Positions 6,470 through 29,799 of a stretch of DNA of 40,818 nt are shown piece after piece (the stretch's first letter is position 1; each line of letters opens with the position of its first letter). The notes under the pieces were generated by a model. It did not search any database, was not told the DNA's origin, and was given only the letters and a program-made list of their open reading frames with translations. A program made the position numbers and the translations under genes. This DNA comes from a virus: the IMG/VR virus record IMGVR_UViG_3300022221_000015, positions 1 through 40,818 of that record. One strand, written 5' to 3'.

Positions 6470-7834
6470 GTGTATTATAAGGGGCAGAGAATAGTGGTTG
6501 AATTAACACATAAGCGTGGTTGGGATTCCAAGGTCTTTGACACTGGGAAAGTCTTTGTAGATAAAGACAATAAAGAACTCCCCATATATGGAACAAAGCT
6601 CCAAAATGGCCTTCATGATATCGAGACTGACGGTTCTTTTGTAGACGTTATTAATAGATTCCGGCCTTATGTTGGGAATGTTTCCACCGATGAGGTTATA
6701 AGAAATCGTGGCAAGGTAAAAATCTCCGACACCGGTAGTGAGTCTAAGGATAGGGTTAAGGTAACAACGAAGAGAGATTGTGGTGTAAGTCTCAAGCTGA
6801 AAGGGTATAGGACTTACGGCCCTCATTTCGACACTTTAAAAGATACTTATTACACTACAGATAATGGAATAACTCTGAGGTATTACCCTAATTATAAAGG
6901 GGTAAATATTGTTATAGAGGTGGCTAATCCTGCTACTGCATTAAATGTATTTAGATTTACTCTTAAAGAATATGGGTGCTCTTATACCTACGAGAAGATT
7001 GAGGGAGGTATTAAGTGTATAAGCTCTACGGGCCAGGATGATCTTTATATCAAGGCTTTATATGTTAAAGATGCTAATGATGATTACGGCACAGTAGATA
7101 TAGACCTTGACGGGGTCGAGGATGGACGGCAGATAATAAAGAAGACTATTGCTCCTGTATGGTTAGGTAATGCGGTAGGTCCAGTTGAATTAGACCCTAG
7201 TGTTACCATTGAAGACGGTGTTGCAGGTGGTGTAATTGAAGATGCGGTTATGGCAGGCGGGACTACACTAAACTATGGCGCTAGAGTCAACATGAACTGC
7301 AATGACTTTACGGGGGGGAACTATCAGAACTGGTGGATAAATGTGGACTTATCAGGGGAAGATTCGTCGAGGACTGTAACTCTGGCAAAGTTTATTAATT
7401 ATTGTGATTATGTTTTCGGTGGAGGCGGTTTTGAATGTAGTTTATGGCCGAGCTTGAGACAGGCGGTTGAAGGTACGAAAGATGGTGTTTCTGAGGTTGG
7501 GTCTATTTGTGGATTAGCTGCTAGATATACAATAGAAAACTGGACTACAATAAATGGTCAAAGTGCTGGTAATGACTATGACGATACACTTGCAACAGCT
7601 ACTTTTACCGCACCAACGGCAACAGGATCTTACGACATCGTTTGCGCTAACAGTATTATTCAGGCGAGATTAGGGAGTAGTTATTTCGGGGATATTATAC
7701 ATTCCACAACAAGAACAGCTAGCAAGTCATTCAGAACTCAAACAAGCGAGGGAGCAAATAAGCCTCAATTTTACTATGAATATACAGAAGGTGGTTTTAA
7801 CGGTTTTCCAATATTCTTTCAAGAGGAGTGCTAG
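6470..7834 (+). CDS. large hypothetical virion protein
   Basis: A 454-residue protein of unknown family. Gly, Asn, Thr and aromatic residues are frequent, and there is a repeated Gly/Val/Glu stretch around residues 235-260 (VTIEDGVAGGVIEDAVMAGG). This suggests a beta-rich exposed protein such as a head fibre or surface protein. GTG start has only a weak ribosome binding site, so the N-terminus is uncertain. A run of seven G at 7312-7318 lies inside the gene and could be a slippage or sequencing-error spot; the frame stays open across it as written. Confidence 0.6.
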   Translation: MYYKGQRIVVELTHKRGWDSKVFDTGKVFVDKDNKELPIYGTKLQNGLHDIETDGSFVDVINRFRPYVGNVSTDEVIRNRGKVKISDTGSESKDRVKVTTKRDCGVSLKLKGYRTYGPHFDTLKDTYYTTDNGITLRYYPNYKGVNIVIEVANPATALNVFRFTLKEYGCSYTYEKIEGGIKCISSTGQDDLYIKALYVKDANDDYGTVDIDLDGVEDGRQIIKKTIAPVWLGNAVGPVELDPSVTIEDGVAGGVIEDAVMAGGTTLNYGARVNMNCNDFTGGNYQNWWINVDLSGEDSSRTVTLAKFINYCDYVFGGGGFECSLWPSLRQAVEGTKDGVSEVGSICGLAARYTIENWTTINGQSAGNDYDDTLATATFTAPTATGSYDIVCANSIIQARLGSSYFGDIIHSTTRTASKSFRTQTSEGANKPQFYYEYTEGGFNGFPIFFQEEC

Positions 7835-7836
7835 AC

Positions 7837-8079
7837 ATGCCAATGTACGATTTTAAATGTGTATGTGGAGAGGAAGCGGAATTTTATTTATCCGTTAAGG
7901 AGTATGATAATGAAATGAAATGTAAGTGTGGTGAGGTAATGAAAAGAGTTATGTCAATACCTGCCAATTCTTATGTGTCAGGTTATCCCTATAACGATCC
8001 TAGTTTAGGTATGACCATAACAGACCCTGCTCATAGGAAGAGAGTTATGAAACAACACTCTTTAGTTGAGAAGGGATAA
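7837..8079 (+). CDS. FmdB-like zinc-ribbon protein
   Basis: An 80-residue protein beginning MPMYDFKCVCG, the N-terminal signature of FmdB-type zinc ribbons, with a second CKCG pair near residue 30; the two CxC-type pairs would bind one zinc. ATG at 7837 has GGAG 8 bp upstream. An upstream GTG (7828) overlaps that signal and is less likely. Small zinc ribbons are common in phage head operons. The target is unknown. Confidence 0.75.
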   Translation: MPMYDFKCVCGEEAEFYLSVKEYDNEMKCKCGEVMKRVMSIPANSYVSGYPYNDPSLGMTITDPAHRKRVMKQHSLVEKG

Positions 8080-8895: not shown

Positions 8896-9987
8896 ATGGC
8901 ACCTAGTCAAAGAACTATAGACTATGATGCTGTTCTAGCCACTACCCTAGATGCTTATAGGCCAGAGATGGTTAATAACATCGCTAAGGAAAGTGTCCTT
9001 ATGTCTGCTATTAAAGAGAAAGGTGGTTACCGTTCTCAAGACGGTGGTGATAGAATCAGAATCGAATTGATGTATGGAAAGACTCCGGTCGCTTCCTACT
9101 CCGGTTACGATACTCTTGATACCACTCCAGCAGATGGTATGACAACTGCTTTTTATGATTGGCGTCAAATCGCGACTCCAATTGCTATTAGCAGGAAAGA
9201 GGAAAGAAAGAACAGCGGAAAATCTAAGATCATATCGCTCTTAGATAGTAAGATCAAACAGGCAGAAATGTCAATAACCGAAGAATTGAATTACCAACTT
9301 CTTGGTAAGACAGTTTCAGGTGGAGTATTTGTAGAAGGTAATAATACTAAAGATATTACCTCTCTTGCTCAAATGCTTCCGAAAAACCCAGGTGGGGCAG
9401 TTAGTATTGGTAATATTGACCCATCTACGTATTCTTGGTGGAGACCTAAAGTTGTTGACGGTTCTACGGACGGAGCTACAACTCAGGACACTAATACAAA
9501 CGCCGGTTTCGATCTGAATACATATGCAGAACTTCGGCAGGCTATGAAGAGAACTTATAACTTCTGTACTCGTGGCCCCGGTGGAGCTCCTAATATGGTC
9601 ATGACCGATCAAGTTGGTTACGAGACGTATGAGAATGCTCTTGAGGATAAAGTTCGTTATGGTGTTGAGTCCGCTCATATGCCTTTCGATAATATCCTGT
9701 TCAAGCCTGGTTGTCCCATCTATTGGGATGAGCAAATGCCTGACATAGAGAATGGAGCGAATTATGAGAATCCTAATGCTACTCCTACATCTACCTTCTA
9801 CTTCCTTAATACGAAGTTCCTGGAGATAGTATACGATAGCCAGACGGACTTCATGACAACTGCATTCACCAAGCCTGAGAATCAAGATGCCAAAGTGGCT
9901 CACATTCTCTGGTATGGTAATCTTACCTGTAGTAATAGAAGGAAGCAAGGTCTTCTCTACGGTGTAAGTCAATCTATAACTTCATAA
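8896..9987 (+). CDS. major capsid protein
   Basis: A 363-residue protein directly after the scaffold gene, with a very strong ribosome binding site (AAGGAGGAATTAAATT). The sequence includes an N-terminal arm, a GGYRSQDGGDRIRIEL-type beta region (about 43-58), a helical segment around 105-140 (KSKIISLLDSKIKQAEMS) and a C-terminal beta region, consistent with an HK97-fold capsid subunit. The call rests on position, size and expression signals. No protease gene was recognised nearby. Confidence 0.8.
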   Translation: MAPSQRTIDYDAVLATTLDAYRPEMVNNIAKESVLMSAIKEKGGYRSQDGGDRIRIELMYGKTPVASYSGYDTLDTTPADGMTTAFYDWRQIATPIAISRKEERKNSGKSKIISLLDSKIKQAEMSITEELNYQLLGKTVSGGVFVEGNNTKDITSLAQMLPKNPGGAVSIGNIDPSTYSWWRPKVVDGSTDGATTQDTNTNAGFDLNTYAELRQAMKRTYNFCTRGPGGAPNMVMTDQVGYETYENALEDKVRYGVESAHMPFDNILFKPGCPIYWDEQMPDIENGANYENPNATPTSTFYFLNTKFLEIVYDSQTDFMTTAFTKPENQDAKVAHILWYGNLTCSNRRKQGLLYGVSQSITS

Positions 9988-10006: not shown

Positions 10007-10459
10007 ATGTTATGGCAAAGAATTAACAGAGGCGATCCTGAGAAATGTTTCATTGTTGTTTACAACAGTTACTCAACAGCCTCACTAACAAATGGGCAAG
10101 CGGTATCTTGGGACTATGTAACTGATGCCGATGGTGTCGGAGTTACTCTTCCCCCGGCTCGTGCGGTATCTGGAGGTACATCTATTGCAGGTGTTGCCGC
10201 TGATACGATAGCCGCTGGTGAGTACGGACTCTGCCAGACTTACGGTTACCATAGTGCGGTAAGGATGAGGACTGCTACAGGTGGTTCTCCAGCGATTGCT
10301 GCTGGGCGTCCATTGGTAATGAGTGCTCTTACCACATTCGCTCTTGAAAGTGTTTCAACAGCCTCGACTGCGGTATTGACATTCCCTTGTGGATTCTCTC
10401 TCGCTGCTCAAGCTAGTTGGACTACTAAGGCAGTCGCTGCCTTTATCAAAGCACTGTAG
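10007..10459 (+). CDS. probable head decoration protein
   Basis: A 150-residue protein rich in Ala, Gly, Ser and Thr, with an AGVAADTIAAGEYG stretch near residue 65. This is the composition of capsid cement or decoration proteins with a small beta-barrel (DUF2190-like). It follows the capsid gene, has AAAGGAGGAAATTA as ribosome binding site, and is followed by a strong terminator, as expected for abundant head proteins. Exact family not confirmed. Confidence 0.65.
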   Translation: MLWQRINRGDPEKCFIVVYNSYSTASLTNGQAVSWDYVTDADGVGVTLPPARAVSGGTSIAGVAADTIAAGEYGLCQTYGYHSAVRMRTATGGSPAIAAGRPLVMSALTTFALESVSTASTAVLTFPCGFSLAAQASWTTKAVAAFIKAL

Positions 10460-10528: not shown

Positions 10529-10804
10529 ATGAGTGAAGCAGTTGTAGGTAAGTACGAAGGTAGGAAGAAAACATACTTAGAGATAAATGGACTAGGTCAT
10601 GATTCCATTCTACGTTGCGGTAAATGCCTTAAGTTAATACTCATGGAAGATGTAAAGAAGAACGGTCAATGTCACCTATGTGGCAGTACTAAGGTAACGG
10701 AAGTAAGAACACTTACAGATGAAGAGAGAAACCAGATTATTAATGAGATGGATTTTCCCTTCAAAGAAGAGTTCTTAAAGGAGTTTACCAATGACAAAAA
10801 ATAA
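10529..10804 (+). CDS. small zinc-ribbon protein
   Basis: A 91-residue protein with CGKC (about 31-34) and CHLCG (about 47-51), a four-cysteine zinc ribbon, then an acidic helical C-terminus. It overlaps the glycosyltransferase-methyltransferase gene by 14 bp, so the two are probably co-translated and may work together. The precise role is unknown. Confidence 0.7.
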   Translation: MSEAVVGKYEGRKKTYLEINGLGHDSILRCGKCLKLILMEDVKKNGQCHLCGSTKVTEVRTLTDEERNQIINEMDFPFKEEFLKEFTNDKK

Positions 10805-12173
10805 GAAGAAAGTATTTATAGGAATACCTTGTTTCGGAACAGTAGCACCAGAGATATTGGAAGATTGGATGAGATGGACATATCACCTTGGTAGGCGATT
10901 GACCAATTATGATTTCTTCCTTGGAATTAAAACTAAGAGTGAACAGTTCAGAGCTAGGAATTCAATAGTAACAGCGGCTAGGCAGATAGGGGCCGATTAT
11001 CTTCTCATGCTGGATGATGATATGATTATTGATATTGATAAGAATATTGGAGAGAGTTCTAGTTATTCTTTTATTGATAAGCTCATCAATCACGGGAAGG
11101 ATATTTGTGGAGCCTTATATTACCACCGTGGTGGAGAGTGTCGTCCTATAGCCATGATGGAATATGGAACTGCTCATAGGTTCTTAAGGGATGATGAGAT
11201 AACTCATTCACTTCAAGAGGTAGATGTAGCCGGTGGTGGTTGCCTTATGATTGATATGAAGGTATTCGACGGACTGAAGGAACCTTATTTCGCTCCTGAA
11301 TTCGAATATGGAACGGATATACAACTATGTAAGAAGGCGAAGGAAGCTGGATTCTCCGTGTTCATAGATTCGAGTATTGAATTCGGACACCTTAAGAATG
11401 AGCGTTCTATCGTTACTTCCAGAAACCGTCACATTCATATGGCTCAAGATATGGTAGCCGGTGAGGAGAGTGTGAAGTTTGTAACCAGTGAAATTCTTAT
11501 GGATCTTGTTGAGGATGCCAAGAAGTTTACCGGTTACAATACTATAGACGAGATGGTAGGTGCTGGTAATTCCTTCATGGATGAATGGGAAGAAGGACTT
11601 GGTCCAGAGGAAGTAGCAGATTGGTACAGGAAGTATCCTAATGAGAGAGTGGCTAGGCAGGTGGCTTATCTCACGCAGACTGCTCATAAGAAACAACTAT
11701 TGGATACAGTTCTCCAGTCCGTCTCTGATGCCAAACCTTATCGTATTCTAGACTTCGGTTGTGGAACTGGTACTATTGGATATGAGCTTGCTAAGAGAGG
11801 TCATGATGTTCACTTTATGGATATAAAAGATACAGCAACATTTAAGTTTCTCCAATGGAGAATTAAAGAGAATAATCTCAAAGGTATATTTATAGATTCA
11901 CATGGAGGTCCTCCAGTAGGATTGGATGGGAATAAGTTTGATGTTATAATCGCTATGGATTCCATAGAGCATATAGAGGATTGGCCAGAAGCCGTTAGGA
12001 TACTTGCTGATAGGTTAGATTCTCAAGGAGTAATGTTCTCGAATAACGGAATACTAGACGATCAAGGACACCCTGAGCATTTCCCACTTAAGCCTAAGGA
12101 TTTCCAGATTGAAATGATTAAGAACGGATTGCAACCAGTAAATCAAATTACGTATATTAAACAAGGAGGTTAA
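10791..12173 (+). CDS. glycosyltransferase-methyltransferase fusion
   Basis: A 460-residue two-domain enzyme. Residues about 7-240 look like a GT-A glycosyltransferase: FRARNSIVTAARQIGADYLL followed by LDDDM, with D75-D77 as the likely metal and sugar-nucleotide site. Residues about 300-460 are a class I SAM-dependent methyltransferase with motif I ILDFGCGTG (319-327). It sits inside the structural operon between head and tail genes. Modification of a virion or host-surface glycan is a reasonable inference; DNA modification is less likely from the position. Substrates are unknown. Confidence 0.8.
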   Translation: MTKNKKKVFIGIPCFGTVAPEILEDWMRWTYHLGRRLTNYDFFLGIKTKSEQFRARNSIVTAARQIGADYLLMLDDDMIIDIDKNIGESSSYSFIDKLINHGKDICGALYYHRGGECRPIAMMEYGTAHRFLRDDEITHSLQEVDVAGGGCLMIDMKVFDGLKEPYFAPEFEYGTDIQLCKKAKEAGFSVFIDSSIEFGHLKNERSIVTSRNRHIHMAQDMVAGEESVKFVTSEILMDLVEDAKKFTGYNTIDEMVGAGNSFMDEWEEGLGPEEVADWYRKYPNERVARQVAYLTQTAHKKQLLDTVLQSVSDAKPYRILDFGCGTGTIGYELAKRGHDVHFMDIKDTATFKFLQWRIKENNLKGIFIDSHGGPPVGLDGNKFDVIIAMDSIEHIEDWPEAVRILADRLDSQGVMFSNNGILDDQGHPEHFPLKPKDFQIEMIKNGLQPVNQITYIKQGG

Positions 12174-12174
12174 C

Positions 12175-12444
12175 ATGTTATCGCCAATAATCGAAAGAGT
12201 TTCATTGTATTCTACTAACCATGGTGGAATTAGATTCCACGACTTCAATCTTGTTCAGACTACACTAGGAGCTATGATTGAAAGTAGGAATCTGTCTCCT
12301 ATCCCAGTTGAGCAAGGTGCGGATATAGCTAATTTCGATCAGGAGAATAATGAGATTACGGCGTTGAGACAAGTAGATGAGAATAAGATATTTGGTTGGT
12401 ATTCTCATAATGGAAGCCAGGTACCTTATGATGTGAGGATTTAA
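12175..12444 (+). CDS. small structural-operon protein, unknown
   Basis: An 89-residue protein of no recognised family. Ribosome binding site AAGGAGGTTAAC; its stop directly abuts the next start (12445). Its place between the fusion enzyme and the adaptor suggests a head-tail junction or tail component. Confidence 0.6.
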   Translation: MLSPIIERVSLYSTNHGGIRFHDFNLVQTTLGAMIESRNLSPIPVEQGADIANFDQENNEITALRQVDENKIFGWYSHNGSQVPYDVRI

Positions 12445-13107
12445 ATGTTTATATTATCCGACCTAAAGACAAGAGTTAAGGATATAATTGGAGACTTTTC
12501 TCCAGAGACTCTTTGGGATTCTACTCTCGATGCCGGGATTGAGGATTATATTAATGATGCCTTTGAGGAAATCAGTGTTAAAACTGGAGCCTATAAAGAG
12601 CAGATGTATATTCCTCTTTCGGCCGGAAAGAGAAGTTATCAGATAGTTCCCAGTTCGCGAGGAGGCCAGTTTTTATATCCAACGAATGTACGTCTTATGG
12701 GACAAAGGCGTGACTTGGTACTAACCGATGTTCGCAAATTGTCACGTAACGACTACAGGTGGATGACAAGAACTGGCTCTCCTCAAGAATTTTACATGGT
12801 CGGAGTTGATGTTATTAGAACTGTTCCCTATTCAAGTGAGGGAGGGGATGTATTACTTCTAGAGGGTGTGGTCATTCCACCCTCCTATTCTTCAAACACG
12901 GAACCAATAGATATTCAAGATAGTTTTATTAATACAATTTGCGAGTATGCCAGTTACATGATGCTTCTGGAGATGAGAAAACTTCCAGCGGCTAGTAAAG
13001 CTTTTACCATGTATGCCCAGAGTATAGGGTTATATGATAATAAAGTTATCAATAAAACTAATAAGGTTTGGAAACTAGAAGGAGTAGGTTCAAATGAATC
13101 TTGGTGA
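12445..13107 (+). CDS. head-tail connector/adaptor-like protein
   Basis: A 220-residue protein with an N-terminal helix-rich segment (LKTRVKDIIGD, then YINDAFEEISVKTG), a beta-rich middle and a C-terminal helical bundle (about 165-205). This resembles podovirus adaptor proteins that bind under the portal. It overlaps the next gene, which has a similar N-terminus and may be a related junction protein. Confidence 0.6.
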   Translation: MFILSDLKTRVKDIIGDFSPETLWDSTLDAGIEDYINDAFEEISVKTGAYKEQMYIPLSAGKRSYQIVPSSRGGQFLYPTNVRLMGQRRDLVLTDVRKLSRNDYRWMTRTGSPQEFYMVGVDVIRTVPYSSEGGDVLLLEGVVIPPSYSSNTEPIDIQDSFINTICEYASYMMLLEMRKLPAASKAFTMYAQSIGLYDNKVINKTNKVWKLEGVGSNESW

Positions 13108-15404: not shown

Positions 15405-16304
15405 ATGTATTGGAGAAGTATAAGTAGATCATGCACTACTCTTGCGTACGGAGCGGGCCTATATGTTGTAGGAACTAACGACGCTAAAATTTACTCCTCT
15501 CCAGATTTAGTTACTTGGACTGAAAGAACTAATCCTGGAGGGTCTCTTCATGATGTAGTAAGTATATGCTGGAATGGGAGTATATTTGTTGGAGTAGGTA
15601 ATGATGGGTCATCATCTCCGGGAGGAAGTTATATCGTCACCTCTTCTGATGGAGTAACATGGACGGAGCGTACTGGTCCTGGAGATGATTCGCACCTGAA
15701 TAAAGTTGCATGGAACGGGTCTGTATTTTGTGCGGGAGGGTCTCAAGGAGTAACTAATACGTATATCATTACCTCTCCTGACGGTATTACGTGGACAGAA
15801 AGAACTTCTACCTTGACCAGCATACAAGGTATTGCATGGAACGGGTCTGTATTTTGTGCGGTTGGAGGAATAACTATAGAGACCTCTCCTGACGGTATTA
15901 CGTGGACAAGTAGGACTGTTGCAGGAAGTCCGGCAGGCATGGTAGATGTTACCTGGAACGGAACTGTATTCTGCTCTGTCGGTTATCAATCGGGTCCTCC
16001 ATATTCATATGCTGCGACCTCTCCTGACGGTATTACGTGGACAGAACGTACTACAGGAGCCTATTGGTTTTTATACGGAATAAATTCAGATGGGACAGAT
16101 TTGCGTGCAGTAGGATATGGCGGCTCAGGACCTGCTACTCAAGCCGTAAAATCTGTAGATGATGGCGTAACATGGACAGATTTTGACAATAGGGGTAATT
16201 TTAAAACGCCTAGTGATGTAGAATACACTAATAATCAATGGTTTGTTTTAAGCGATTATGGTAGTTATGTAGGAGTTGAGGGAGTTGGAATATTATGGAT
16301 GTAA
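15405..16304 (+). CDS. beta-propeller (Asp-box repeat) surface protein
   Basis: A 299-residue protein built of repeats of about 40 residues. Each carries an Asp-box-like TSPDGITWTERT or close variant plus a WNGSVFCAVG-type strand; at least six units are visible. Asp-box repeats mark blades of sialidase-like beta-propellers, often used for binding glycans. No sialidase arginine triad could be assigned, so binding rather than catalysis is more likely. Several repeats are nearly identical in DNA, showing recent internal duplication. Confidence 0.75.
   Translation: MYWRSISRSCTTLAYGAGLYVVGTNDAKIYSSPDLVTWTERTNPGGSLHDVVSICWNGSIFVGVGNDGSSSPGGSYIVTSSDGVTWTERTGPGDDSHLNKVAWNGSVFCAGGSQGVTNTYIITSPDGITWTERTSTLTSIQGIAWNGSVFCAVGGITIETSPDGITWTSRTVAGSPAGMVDVTWNGTVFCSVGYQSGPPYSYAATSPDGITWTERTTGAYWFLYGINSDGTDLRAVGYGGSGPATQAVKSVDDGVTWTDFDNRGNFKTPSDVEYTNNQWFVLSDYGSYVGVEGVGILWM
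15708..16046 (+). repeat. near-identical internal DNA repeats of the propeller gene
   Basis: A 28-bp stretch starting GCATGGAACGGGTCTG is identical at 15708-15735 and 15834-15861 (126 bp apart). A second word starting ACCTCTCCTGACGG recurs near 15771, 15882 and 16017. Identity at DNA level, not just protein level, points to recent duplication or ongoing gene conversion between blades. Confidence 0.85.
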
Positions 16305-28321: not shown

Positions 28322-28505
28322 AGTTCTTCTCCAATTTAAGAAGTTTGGCGGTTAGATTCTTCTCCGCTTCGGTTAGTTTTTCAATTCCTTCCATGGCATT
28401 CGTCGCTCCCTCTTCCACACACATGCAGATACCTCGTACTATCCCTTGGAAGTTAGCGTAATCGTGGAGCTTATCTATATAGTATCTTCTCTCTTTATCA
28501 TCCAT
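28305..28505 (-). CDS. small helical protein, unknown
   Basis: A 66-residue protein, mostly helical, with a Cys/Met patch (RGICMCVEEGATNAMEGIEKL) and a Leu/Lys coiled-coil end (LTAKLLKLEKNY). It starts inside the end of the methyltransferase fusion gene (8-bp overlap). No family recognised. Confidence 0.65.
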   Translation of the reverse strand: MDDKERRYYIDKLHDYANFQGIVRGICMCVEEGATNAMEGIEKLTEAEKNLTAKLLKLEKNYAEEG

Positions 28506-29799
28506 CTTTTAATACCCCCTTCATATTATGTTTAGTTCCATAGGTTAATAACTTCTCACTTCCTACATTAAAGTGGTTCTCTGATAATTCGGTTGATATA
28601 CACTTCCTCTCTGTGACTAGACAACCCTCTGCTGTCCATCCGCTTCCCCCGAACCAATCAACTACTAACTCTCCCTTTATACTACCGAGTTCAATAAGCT
28701 CAAGTGCCAATCCCAATGGCTTCTCAGCAGGATGTCTCTTATCTTTCGCAGGTAGTGAATCAAAATTAAATACACTATAGTGAGGAGAGTTCAACTTGTT
28801 TGGCTTGTCTCCTTTCCAGACGTGGAAGAATGGTTCATAGTTTGGAGCGAAGTTGGTGTACGGTCTGAAAGATGTACCTCCATGAGCTTTGTTCCATATT
28901 GCTGGGATTGGGTCCACATTAAAACCTGATTCCTGAAGCATAAGATGGTGCTCATGGTGGAACCTACTTGCGTAAAATATAAACGCATGACAACCCTCCT
29001 TTAATACACGGTAAGATTCTTTATAGATGGCGTCACAAAGTTCCAATATATCCTTCTCATCATCTTCATATACCTCATCCCAAGATTTCTTAAAGTCGTA
29101 GTTCTCTCCCAGTCCTACGGCATATGGTGGATCTGTTATAATTAGGTCTACGGAGTTGTCGTCCATAGAGGCCGCTACGTCAAGACACGAGGAGTTGATT
29201 AGAGAGACGTTTTTCACTTTTGTGATCTTAGCACTGTCTTTTATTTTGTCGTCTACTGGTGAGCTATCTGAGAGACTTGAGACTAGCAATTCTCTCGTCT
29301 CTCTCTCTTGTATTCTGATCGCTTTTCGATAAGCATTACTCTTGTCTTTCTCATCCAGCAATTCAGGATATTCCTTAGACATTTCATGTAACATGGTGTC
29401 ACGGACTATCTCCTGTTTACTCACTCCCATGAACTCGGCGGTGTCTTCTTTGTTCCACTTACCTCCAGCCTGTTCGGACTTGAGAGAGTGAATGTCAGAC
29501 TTCAACTTGCTTTCTTCCTGCCATGTCATGGACTTCCTTCTGAAGTTTTCCTCAAGCTCTACCTCTTTCTTTTGGAGAGGAGTTAGTTCCTCGTATACCC
29601 TAACTGGTATATCTTCCCACTTAAGGAGCTTCATTGCTTCTAGCCTACGCTCACCGGCTATGAGCGTACCATCCTTATGGATGGTTATAGGATTTATTAA
29701 TCCGTTATGACGTATACTCTCGGCTAGTTCGGAGAGGTTACCGAAGTCCTTTCTGGCGCGGTCGGTTACTTTGATCTCTTTAAATTTAATTAAGGTCAT
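28498..29799 (-). CDS. ParB-like domain/DNA methyltransferase fusion
   Basis: A 433-residue protein. Residues 1-140 resemble ParB: SIRHNGLINPITI, the GERR box (49-52) and a helix-turn-helix-like stretch (about 112-135, KEDTAEFMGVSKQEIV). Residues about 195-425 are a beta-class amino-methyltransferase with DPPY (223-226), then RHPAEKP (355-361) and FGGSG (383-387). It would methylate adenine N6 or cytosine N4 to protect DNA or regulate. Such fusions are common in phages. The ParB part may guide it to specific sites, possibly the 35-bp palindromes. Ribosome binding site GGAGGAGAT. Confidence 0.9.
   Translation of the reverse strand: MTLIKFKEIKVTDRARKDFGNLSELAESIRHNGLINPITIHKDGTLIAGERRLEAMKLLKWEDIPVRVYEELTPLQKKEVELEENFRRKSMTWQEESKLKSDIHSLKSEQAGGKWNKEDTAEFMGVSKQEIVRDTMLHEMSKEYPELLDEKDKSNAYRKAIRIQERETRELLVSSLSDSSPVDDKIKDSAKITKVKNVSLINSSCLDVAASMDDNSVDLIITDPPYAVGLGENYDFKKSWDEVYEDDEKDILELCDAIYKESYRVLKEGCHAFIFYASRFHHEHHLMLQESGFNVDPIPAIWNKAHGGTSFRPYTNFAPNYEPFFHVWKGDKPNKLNSPHYSVFNFDSLPAKDKRHPAEKPLGLALELIELGSIKGELVVDWFGGSGWTAEGCLVTERKCISTELSENHFNVGSEKLLTYGTKHNMKGVLKDG

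Follow-up and report, generated by a model that had tools for sequence, protein, structure and literature searches.

The window analysed here is a virus record of 40,818 bases, in which one gene encodes a predicted glycosyltransferase (GT) fused to a predicted class I methyltransferase within a conserved order of major capsid protein, decoration protein, zinc ribbon, GT-methyltransferase, 89-aa protein and SU10-type adaptor genes (Table 1). As the original prediction stated, the fusion lies between head and tail genes (here a decoration protein upstream and an SU10-type head-tail adaptor downstream), and the overlapping zinc-ribbon gene that precedes it is real, its four cysteines being invariant in 23 homologues. 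The product of the gene next to the major capsid gene, as modelled, folds like known capsid decoration proteins, matching the HFTV1 capsid-interface chain (Z 13.1) and then the decoration proteins of Sf11, Pa193, Pam3, T1 and TW1 and the phi29 head fibre base. In relatives it is 51-71% identical to the window's protein, against 38-62% for the capsid protein, and is thus the better conserved of the two. Tandem decoration genes, in two or three copies, stand ahead of the enzyme island in contigs L019, L023, L034, L040 and L126. No convincing Pfam or PHROG match was obtained for the 89-aa protein.

Table 1. Positions of the genes, domains and signals at the fusion locus, with a gene family found beside the fusion in related contigs
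Feature	Position	Strand	Details
Major capsid protein	8896..9987	+	363 aa; phrog_9953, 2.3e-48; alternative candidate acceptor
Capsid decoration (cement) protein, predicted	10007..10459	+	150 aa; AF2 model, fold search; weak PF09956; first candidate acceptor
Zinc-ribbon protein	10529..10804	+	91 aa; overlaps fusion start by 14 nt; four Cys
Shine-Dalgarno AAAGGAG for fusion gene	10777-10783	+	Sequence; within zinc-ribbon gene
GT-methyltransferase fusion gene	10791..12173	+	460 aa; intact ORF; ATG start
GT-A glycosyltransferase domain, predicted	10806..11438	+	Residues 6-216; DDD 75-77, GTD 174-176, GH 199-200
Class I SAM methyltransferase domain, predicted	11601..12164	+	Residues 271-458; motif I DFGCG 321-325, acidic D344, DSIEH 390-394
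Small conserved protein	12175..12444	+	89 aa; HMM matches 3' of fusion in almost every core fused contig
SU10-type head-tail adaptor	12445..13107	+	PF24175, 1.2e-13; right border of variable slot
Family of about 210 aa with HDD motif	L015 7394-7999; L019 9377-9988; L031 9398-10075; L034 9377-10036; L035 9401-10057; L039 9159-9794		Related contigs

The N-terminal half of the fusion is a predicted glycosyltransferase of GT-A fold. It fell below detection in the Pfam scan, where a TAGT match at 0.042 was the sole trace, and in a PHROGs search it matched phrog_1574 (1.8e-7), a family of no assigned function that is also matched by 13 of 15 homologues of the fusion. An AlphaFold (AF2) model built from 15 homologues reached a pLDDT of 83.7 and a pTM of 0.55, a value at which the relative placement of the domains is uncertain and their arrangement is not to be relied upon. 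Structure prediction, suggested at the outset as a check for the lack of either fold, places both in the one chain. The best solved match to the GT domain is STIV A197 (2c0n; Z 19.0, 174 residues aligned, 2.5 Å, 18% identity), and the GT-like domain of LH3 also matches (Z 17.7). The DXD metal-binding motif appears in the sequence as DDD at residues 75-77, in keeping with the DDD type first proposed; D75, D76, D77, G174, T175, D176 and H200 are kept in all 36 fused homologues and G199 in 35 of them. Judged by position rather than by geometry, H200 would be the metal-ligand histidine and D176 the catalytic acidic residue.

The C-terminal half is assigned by its modelled fold and motif I to the class I SAM-dependent methyltransferases. 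It resembles UbiG and ChlM in a fold search with the AF2 model (UbiG 4kdr, Z 17.8, 175 residues, 2.5 Å), and Pfam Methyltransf_23 matches residues 307-416 above the cut-off (7.7e-14). D321 is kept in 35 of 36 fused sequences, and G325 and D344 in every one. A profile of this domain matches many O- and N-methyltransferases, none of them dominant, including the D-glucose O-methyltransferase 6uv6 (3.7e-5).

The first scans detected the zinc-ribbon gene in every fusion-bearing contig, the partial L040 among them, and also beside the GT-truncated copy in L028 described below. It is likewise found upstream of the GT in several relatives that have the GT alone, and so goes with the GT rather than with the methyltransferase. 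The two genes overlap or almost touch in most contigs, and other genes intervene between them in L015, L019, L031 and L035, so strict translational coupling in cis, in the manner of Mu com-mom, is not general. A single-protein Pfam scan of the zinc ribbon returned no Com match and only weak matches to NOB1-type ribbons. The protein may be a partner of the GT or of its acceptor, or a regulator of translation. Many relatives share with the window another small zinc-ribbon gene, which precedes the scaffold gene (window positions 7828-8079) and matches a PHROG named as a transcriptional regulator (E 1.6e-4).

The fusion family and its linkage to the decoration gene

Searching viral contigs with the fusion protein alone gave no confirmed relative, and tblastn of annotated phages returned matches to the GT domain only, none to the whole fusion. 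The first two relatives, both with the fusion at the corresponding position, were instead reached through the major capsid protein, and a three-sequence alignment then opened the family. Later scans seeded with the capsid or decoration protein raised the total to 35 further viral contigs (36 sequences including the window), which excludes a chance joining of the two domains; the search of other phages for the same fusion and its neighbours, called for by the original prediction, recovered both. A bacterial genome collection yielded one copy only, truncated in the GT, and the fusion is therefore unlike a common host gene. This copy (L028 195-1216, CAIOZP010000289.1) lies on a Fibrobacteres MAG contig, where a zinc ribbon and a GT half ending near residue 239 are followed by genes on the opposite strand; it could be a remnant, a misassembly or a hint of the host. 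A tree of GT domains unites the fused sequences in a single well-supported group (40 rows, 100/99), four of whose members are unfused, and in L139 and L148 the GT and the methyltransferase are separate neighbouring genes. These sequence relationships suggest that the fusion arose once or a few times, with possible later splits.

So that the sample would not be biased towards the enzyme, scans for linkage between the GT and the decoration gene took the major capsid protein or the decoration protein, and not the enzyme, as seed, and were pooled with the earlier loci. The contigs counted were those that carried a decoration gene and extended at least 4.5 kb beyond the capsid gene (n=83; L016 was counted as decoration-positive). 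A homologous GT was found nearby in 78 of the 83: 33 contigs carry the fused GT-methyltransferase, 4 a GT with a separate related methyltransferase and 41 a GT, and in 5 none was detectable. Here "GT only" means that no methyltransferase of the fused type is present; the profile of the fused methyltransferase missed most stand-alone methyltransferases in these contigs, and in a small sample of the contigs Pfam did recover them. None of the six related phages without a decoration gene (MW202803, MW202489, Mx9, ppBjS10J-1, L098 and L115) has a GT of this family. The association is partly one of shared descent, which inflates it, and the decoration-free comparison set has only these six members. 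GT genes are linked to virion genes in this lineage, as they are in loci of the Corndog and Che8 kind.

Sugar-tailoring genes in the decoration-adaptor slot

The window's own slot, between the decoration and adaptor genes, contains no nucleotide-sugar gene, and its zinc ribbon and fusion enzyme are the minimal version of the arrangement. In relatives the same slot holds a UDPG/MGDP dehydrogenase (L014, L015), an NDP-sugar epimerase (L014), a PhyH dioxygenase (L015), CmcI/rhamnosyl O-methyltransferases (L019, and as CmcI homologues L031 and L035), a DegT-type sugar aminotransferase (L031, L035) and sulfotransferases (two in L019, one in L024, and homologues in L031 and L035). Among the GT-only relatives, Pfam places a GT4-family enzyme with a stand-alone methyltransferase in the slot of L157 and L188, and L079 has a radical SAM enzyme with a methyltransferase; a GT and a methyltransferase therefore recur together in this slot even when unfused. 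Genes of unrelated function also occur there (lysis in L018, recombination endonuclease VII in L030), so that position in the slot is no proof of a shared pathway.

Two further families were noted in the slot. In six contigs a gene beside the fusion belongs to a family of proteins of about 210 aa that carry an acidic HDD motif (Table 1); the family has no Pfam and almost no PHROG matches, and looks like an undescribed glycosyltransferase-like family. Radical SAM/SPASM enzymes occupy the slot in L022 (7720-8589), L039 (8422-9129) and L079 (1875-2735), with homologues in L023 (same slot) and in L034, where the gene precedes the scaffold gene, which suggests peptide or sugar modification beyond glycosylation.

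Comparison with other viral glycosyltransferases

Glycosylation of virions is already known from the mycobacteriophages Che8 and Corndog, and the kind of system is not new. In the cluster O phage Corndog, an O-methyltransferase (gp35) and glycosyltransferases (gp36-gp38) have been proposed to modify the capsid with methyl groups and glycans (PMC4351075). As in the window, these enzymes are encoded within the virion structural operon; in Corndog, an unrelated siphovirus, they are separate genes between portal and protease, whereas the window has one fused chain, with a zinc ribbon, between decoration and adaptor. In Che8, the head proteins are proven to bear glycans that GTs of the phage attach (PMC11256854 and PMC12619734, citing Freeman 2023). 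The viral fold matches of the fusion include a Che8 GT. The citing accounts, as far as available, mention no fusion, and the acceptor that is proven for Che8 is a proposed one here. STIV A197, the closest solved fold, is a candidate enzyme for the glycosylated STIV coat protein (PMC4187194); it is a stand-alone archaeal virus protein without a methyltransferase and is itself uncharacterised.

Homologous GT domains with 26-31% identity occur in phrog_1574, in the cyanophages S-TIM54 and S-SCSM2R and in the Manatee Spring phages MW202711 and MW202496. In the latter two the GT also lies between capsid and tail-tubular or adaptor-position genes, but all of these proteins have the GT only, without the zinc ribbon or the methyltransferase domain. 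The best viral fold match, A0A0F7L1S0 ("Family 2 glycosyl transferase", uncultured marine virus; 41% identity over 326 columns of 350 aa), is probably a member of the family already deposited, known from automatic annotation only. No description of this GT-methyltransferase fusion was found in the open-access literature searched. The new features are the joining of GT and methyltransferase in one chain, the zinc ribbon as its partner, the nearly constant link to a decoration gene and an exchangeable island of sugar-tailoring genes.

Acceptors, mechanism and alternative roles

Taken together, the gene neighbourhood and the predicted folds make it likely that the fusion belongs to a late, capsid-linked locus for glycan modification whose acceptor is a head protein. 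As the constant partner of the GT, the decoration protein is the first candidate acceptor, the major capsid protein being second. We hypothesize that late transcription of the head operon would lead to joint production of the decoration protein, the zinc-ribbon protein and the fusion enzyme, whose genes follow one another in the observed layout. The GT-A domain, with DDD and His200 as putative metal ligands, would then use a nucleotide sugar as donor to glycosylate a residue of a head protein, and the methyltransferase domain would methylate the added sugar in cis, capping it. In relatives, the additional enzymes encoded in the slot could alter the glycan by oxidation, epimerisation, amination, sulfation or the action of extra GTs or methyltransferases, and the finished glycan might, more speculatively, protect the capsid surface outside the cell or adjust its properties. 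The original prediction that a methylated sugar is added to a virion protein gains strong circumstantial support, although nothing in the window bears on the change in host recognition or immune evasion suggested with it; the support comes from the near-universal decoration-gene linkage and from the nucleotide-sugar, sulfotransferase, O-methyltransferase and second-GT genes in relatives' slots; the enzyme's activity and product, its donor and acceptor, the placing of the methyl group on the sugar, the order of steps and the benefit we infer.

The acceptor could instead belong to the tail or to the receptor-binding or remaining virion proteins, or be the 89-aa protein encoded downstream, with the glycan tuning adsorption. 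The slot borders the head-tail adaptor gene, and the 89-aa family tracks the core fused clade, its gene falling within the sugar island of L014 and of L019. We regard this as improbable, however, since in fused and GT-only relatives alike the constant upstream neighbour is the decoration gene and not a tail fibre gene.

Modification of the host surface is a classic role of phage GTs, and bacterial surface polysaccharides contain methylated sugars and sulfation. The enzyme might accordingly glycosylate or methylate host O-antigen or capsule during infection, leading to superinfection exclusion or a change of serotype. Such a role is unlikely, given that the gene sits in the head operon rather than beside integrase or tail-fibre genes, that, although serotype conversion is typically a trait of lysogens, just 1 of 17 records contains an integrase, and that a GtrA-type flippase was detected in none of the 17 (the control was positive in 7 genomes). 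Many of the records may be incomplete, which weakens the absence of GtrA and integrase and, equally, that of the hydroxymethyl-base synthesis genes considered next.

DNA is itself the target of some phage GTs (PMC12619734, citing Pyle 2024), and the fusion could act in DNA hypermodification, its GT glycosylating a modified base and its methyltransferase tailoring the base, so that the genome is shielded from restriction. Besides the TAGT match there is one to a glucosyl-HMC glucosyltransferase PHROG (0.015), both weak and spanning about 26 residues around the DDD, and the phage carries a separate ParB-DNA methyltransferase (window 28498-29799, minus strand), in which a ParB N-terminal domain is fused to an N6/N4 DNA methyltransferase (PF02195 and PF01555). 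We nevertheless consider this role unlikely: the gene sits between decoration and adaptor genes and is linked to capsid proteins, it has sulfotransferase and rhamnosyl O-methyltransferase neighbours, and the thymidylate-synthase/hydroxymethylase family (PF00303) was found in none of the 17 possibly incomplete records, with the control positive in 9 genomes. A search of the same records for Tet/JBP dioxygenases (PF12851) also gave none, but its control was equally silent and the result is uninformative. Modification of DNA or of the host surface is less likely than modification of the virion.

On the reading that the virion is modified, phages of this lineage probably coat their heads with modified sugars. 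A broader proposal, which we put forward tentatively as nearly an even call, is that a large uncultured phage lineage has glycan-decorated capsids in which the decoration protein serves as a dedicated scaffold, the fast-changing adjacent enzyme island builds a diversified glycan (methylated, sulfated, or with uronic acids or amino sugars) and the zinc ribbon is a partner or regulator of the GT. If true, capsid glycosylation would be a common and evolving trait, where sugar coats on phage heads have so far been documented in few phages. The locus offers a single candidate acceptor, a compact enzyme predicted to be bifunctional and a set of naturally occurring variants with which the function of capsid glycans outside the cell could be approached.

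Two other features of the structural operon were noted. At window positions 15405-16304, between the adaptor-region and Hc3 genes, lies a gene for a repeat protein with a weak beta-propeller match (DUF6242), which may be an appendage. In L011 (12027-12560), L017 (13968-14489), L036 (10531-11067) and other contigs, and likewise in Mx9 and ppBjS10J-1, the Hc3/stabilisation gene is followed by a GNAT-type acetyltransferase-like gene, which possibly encodes a further virion-modifying enzyme.
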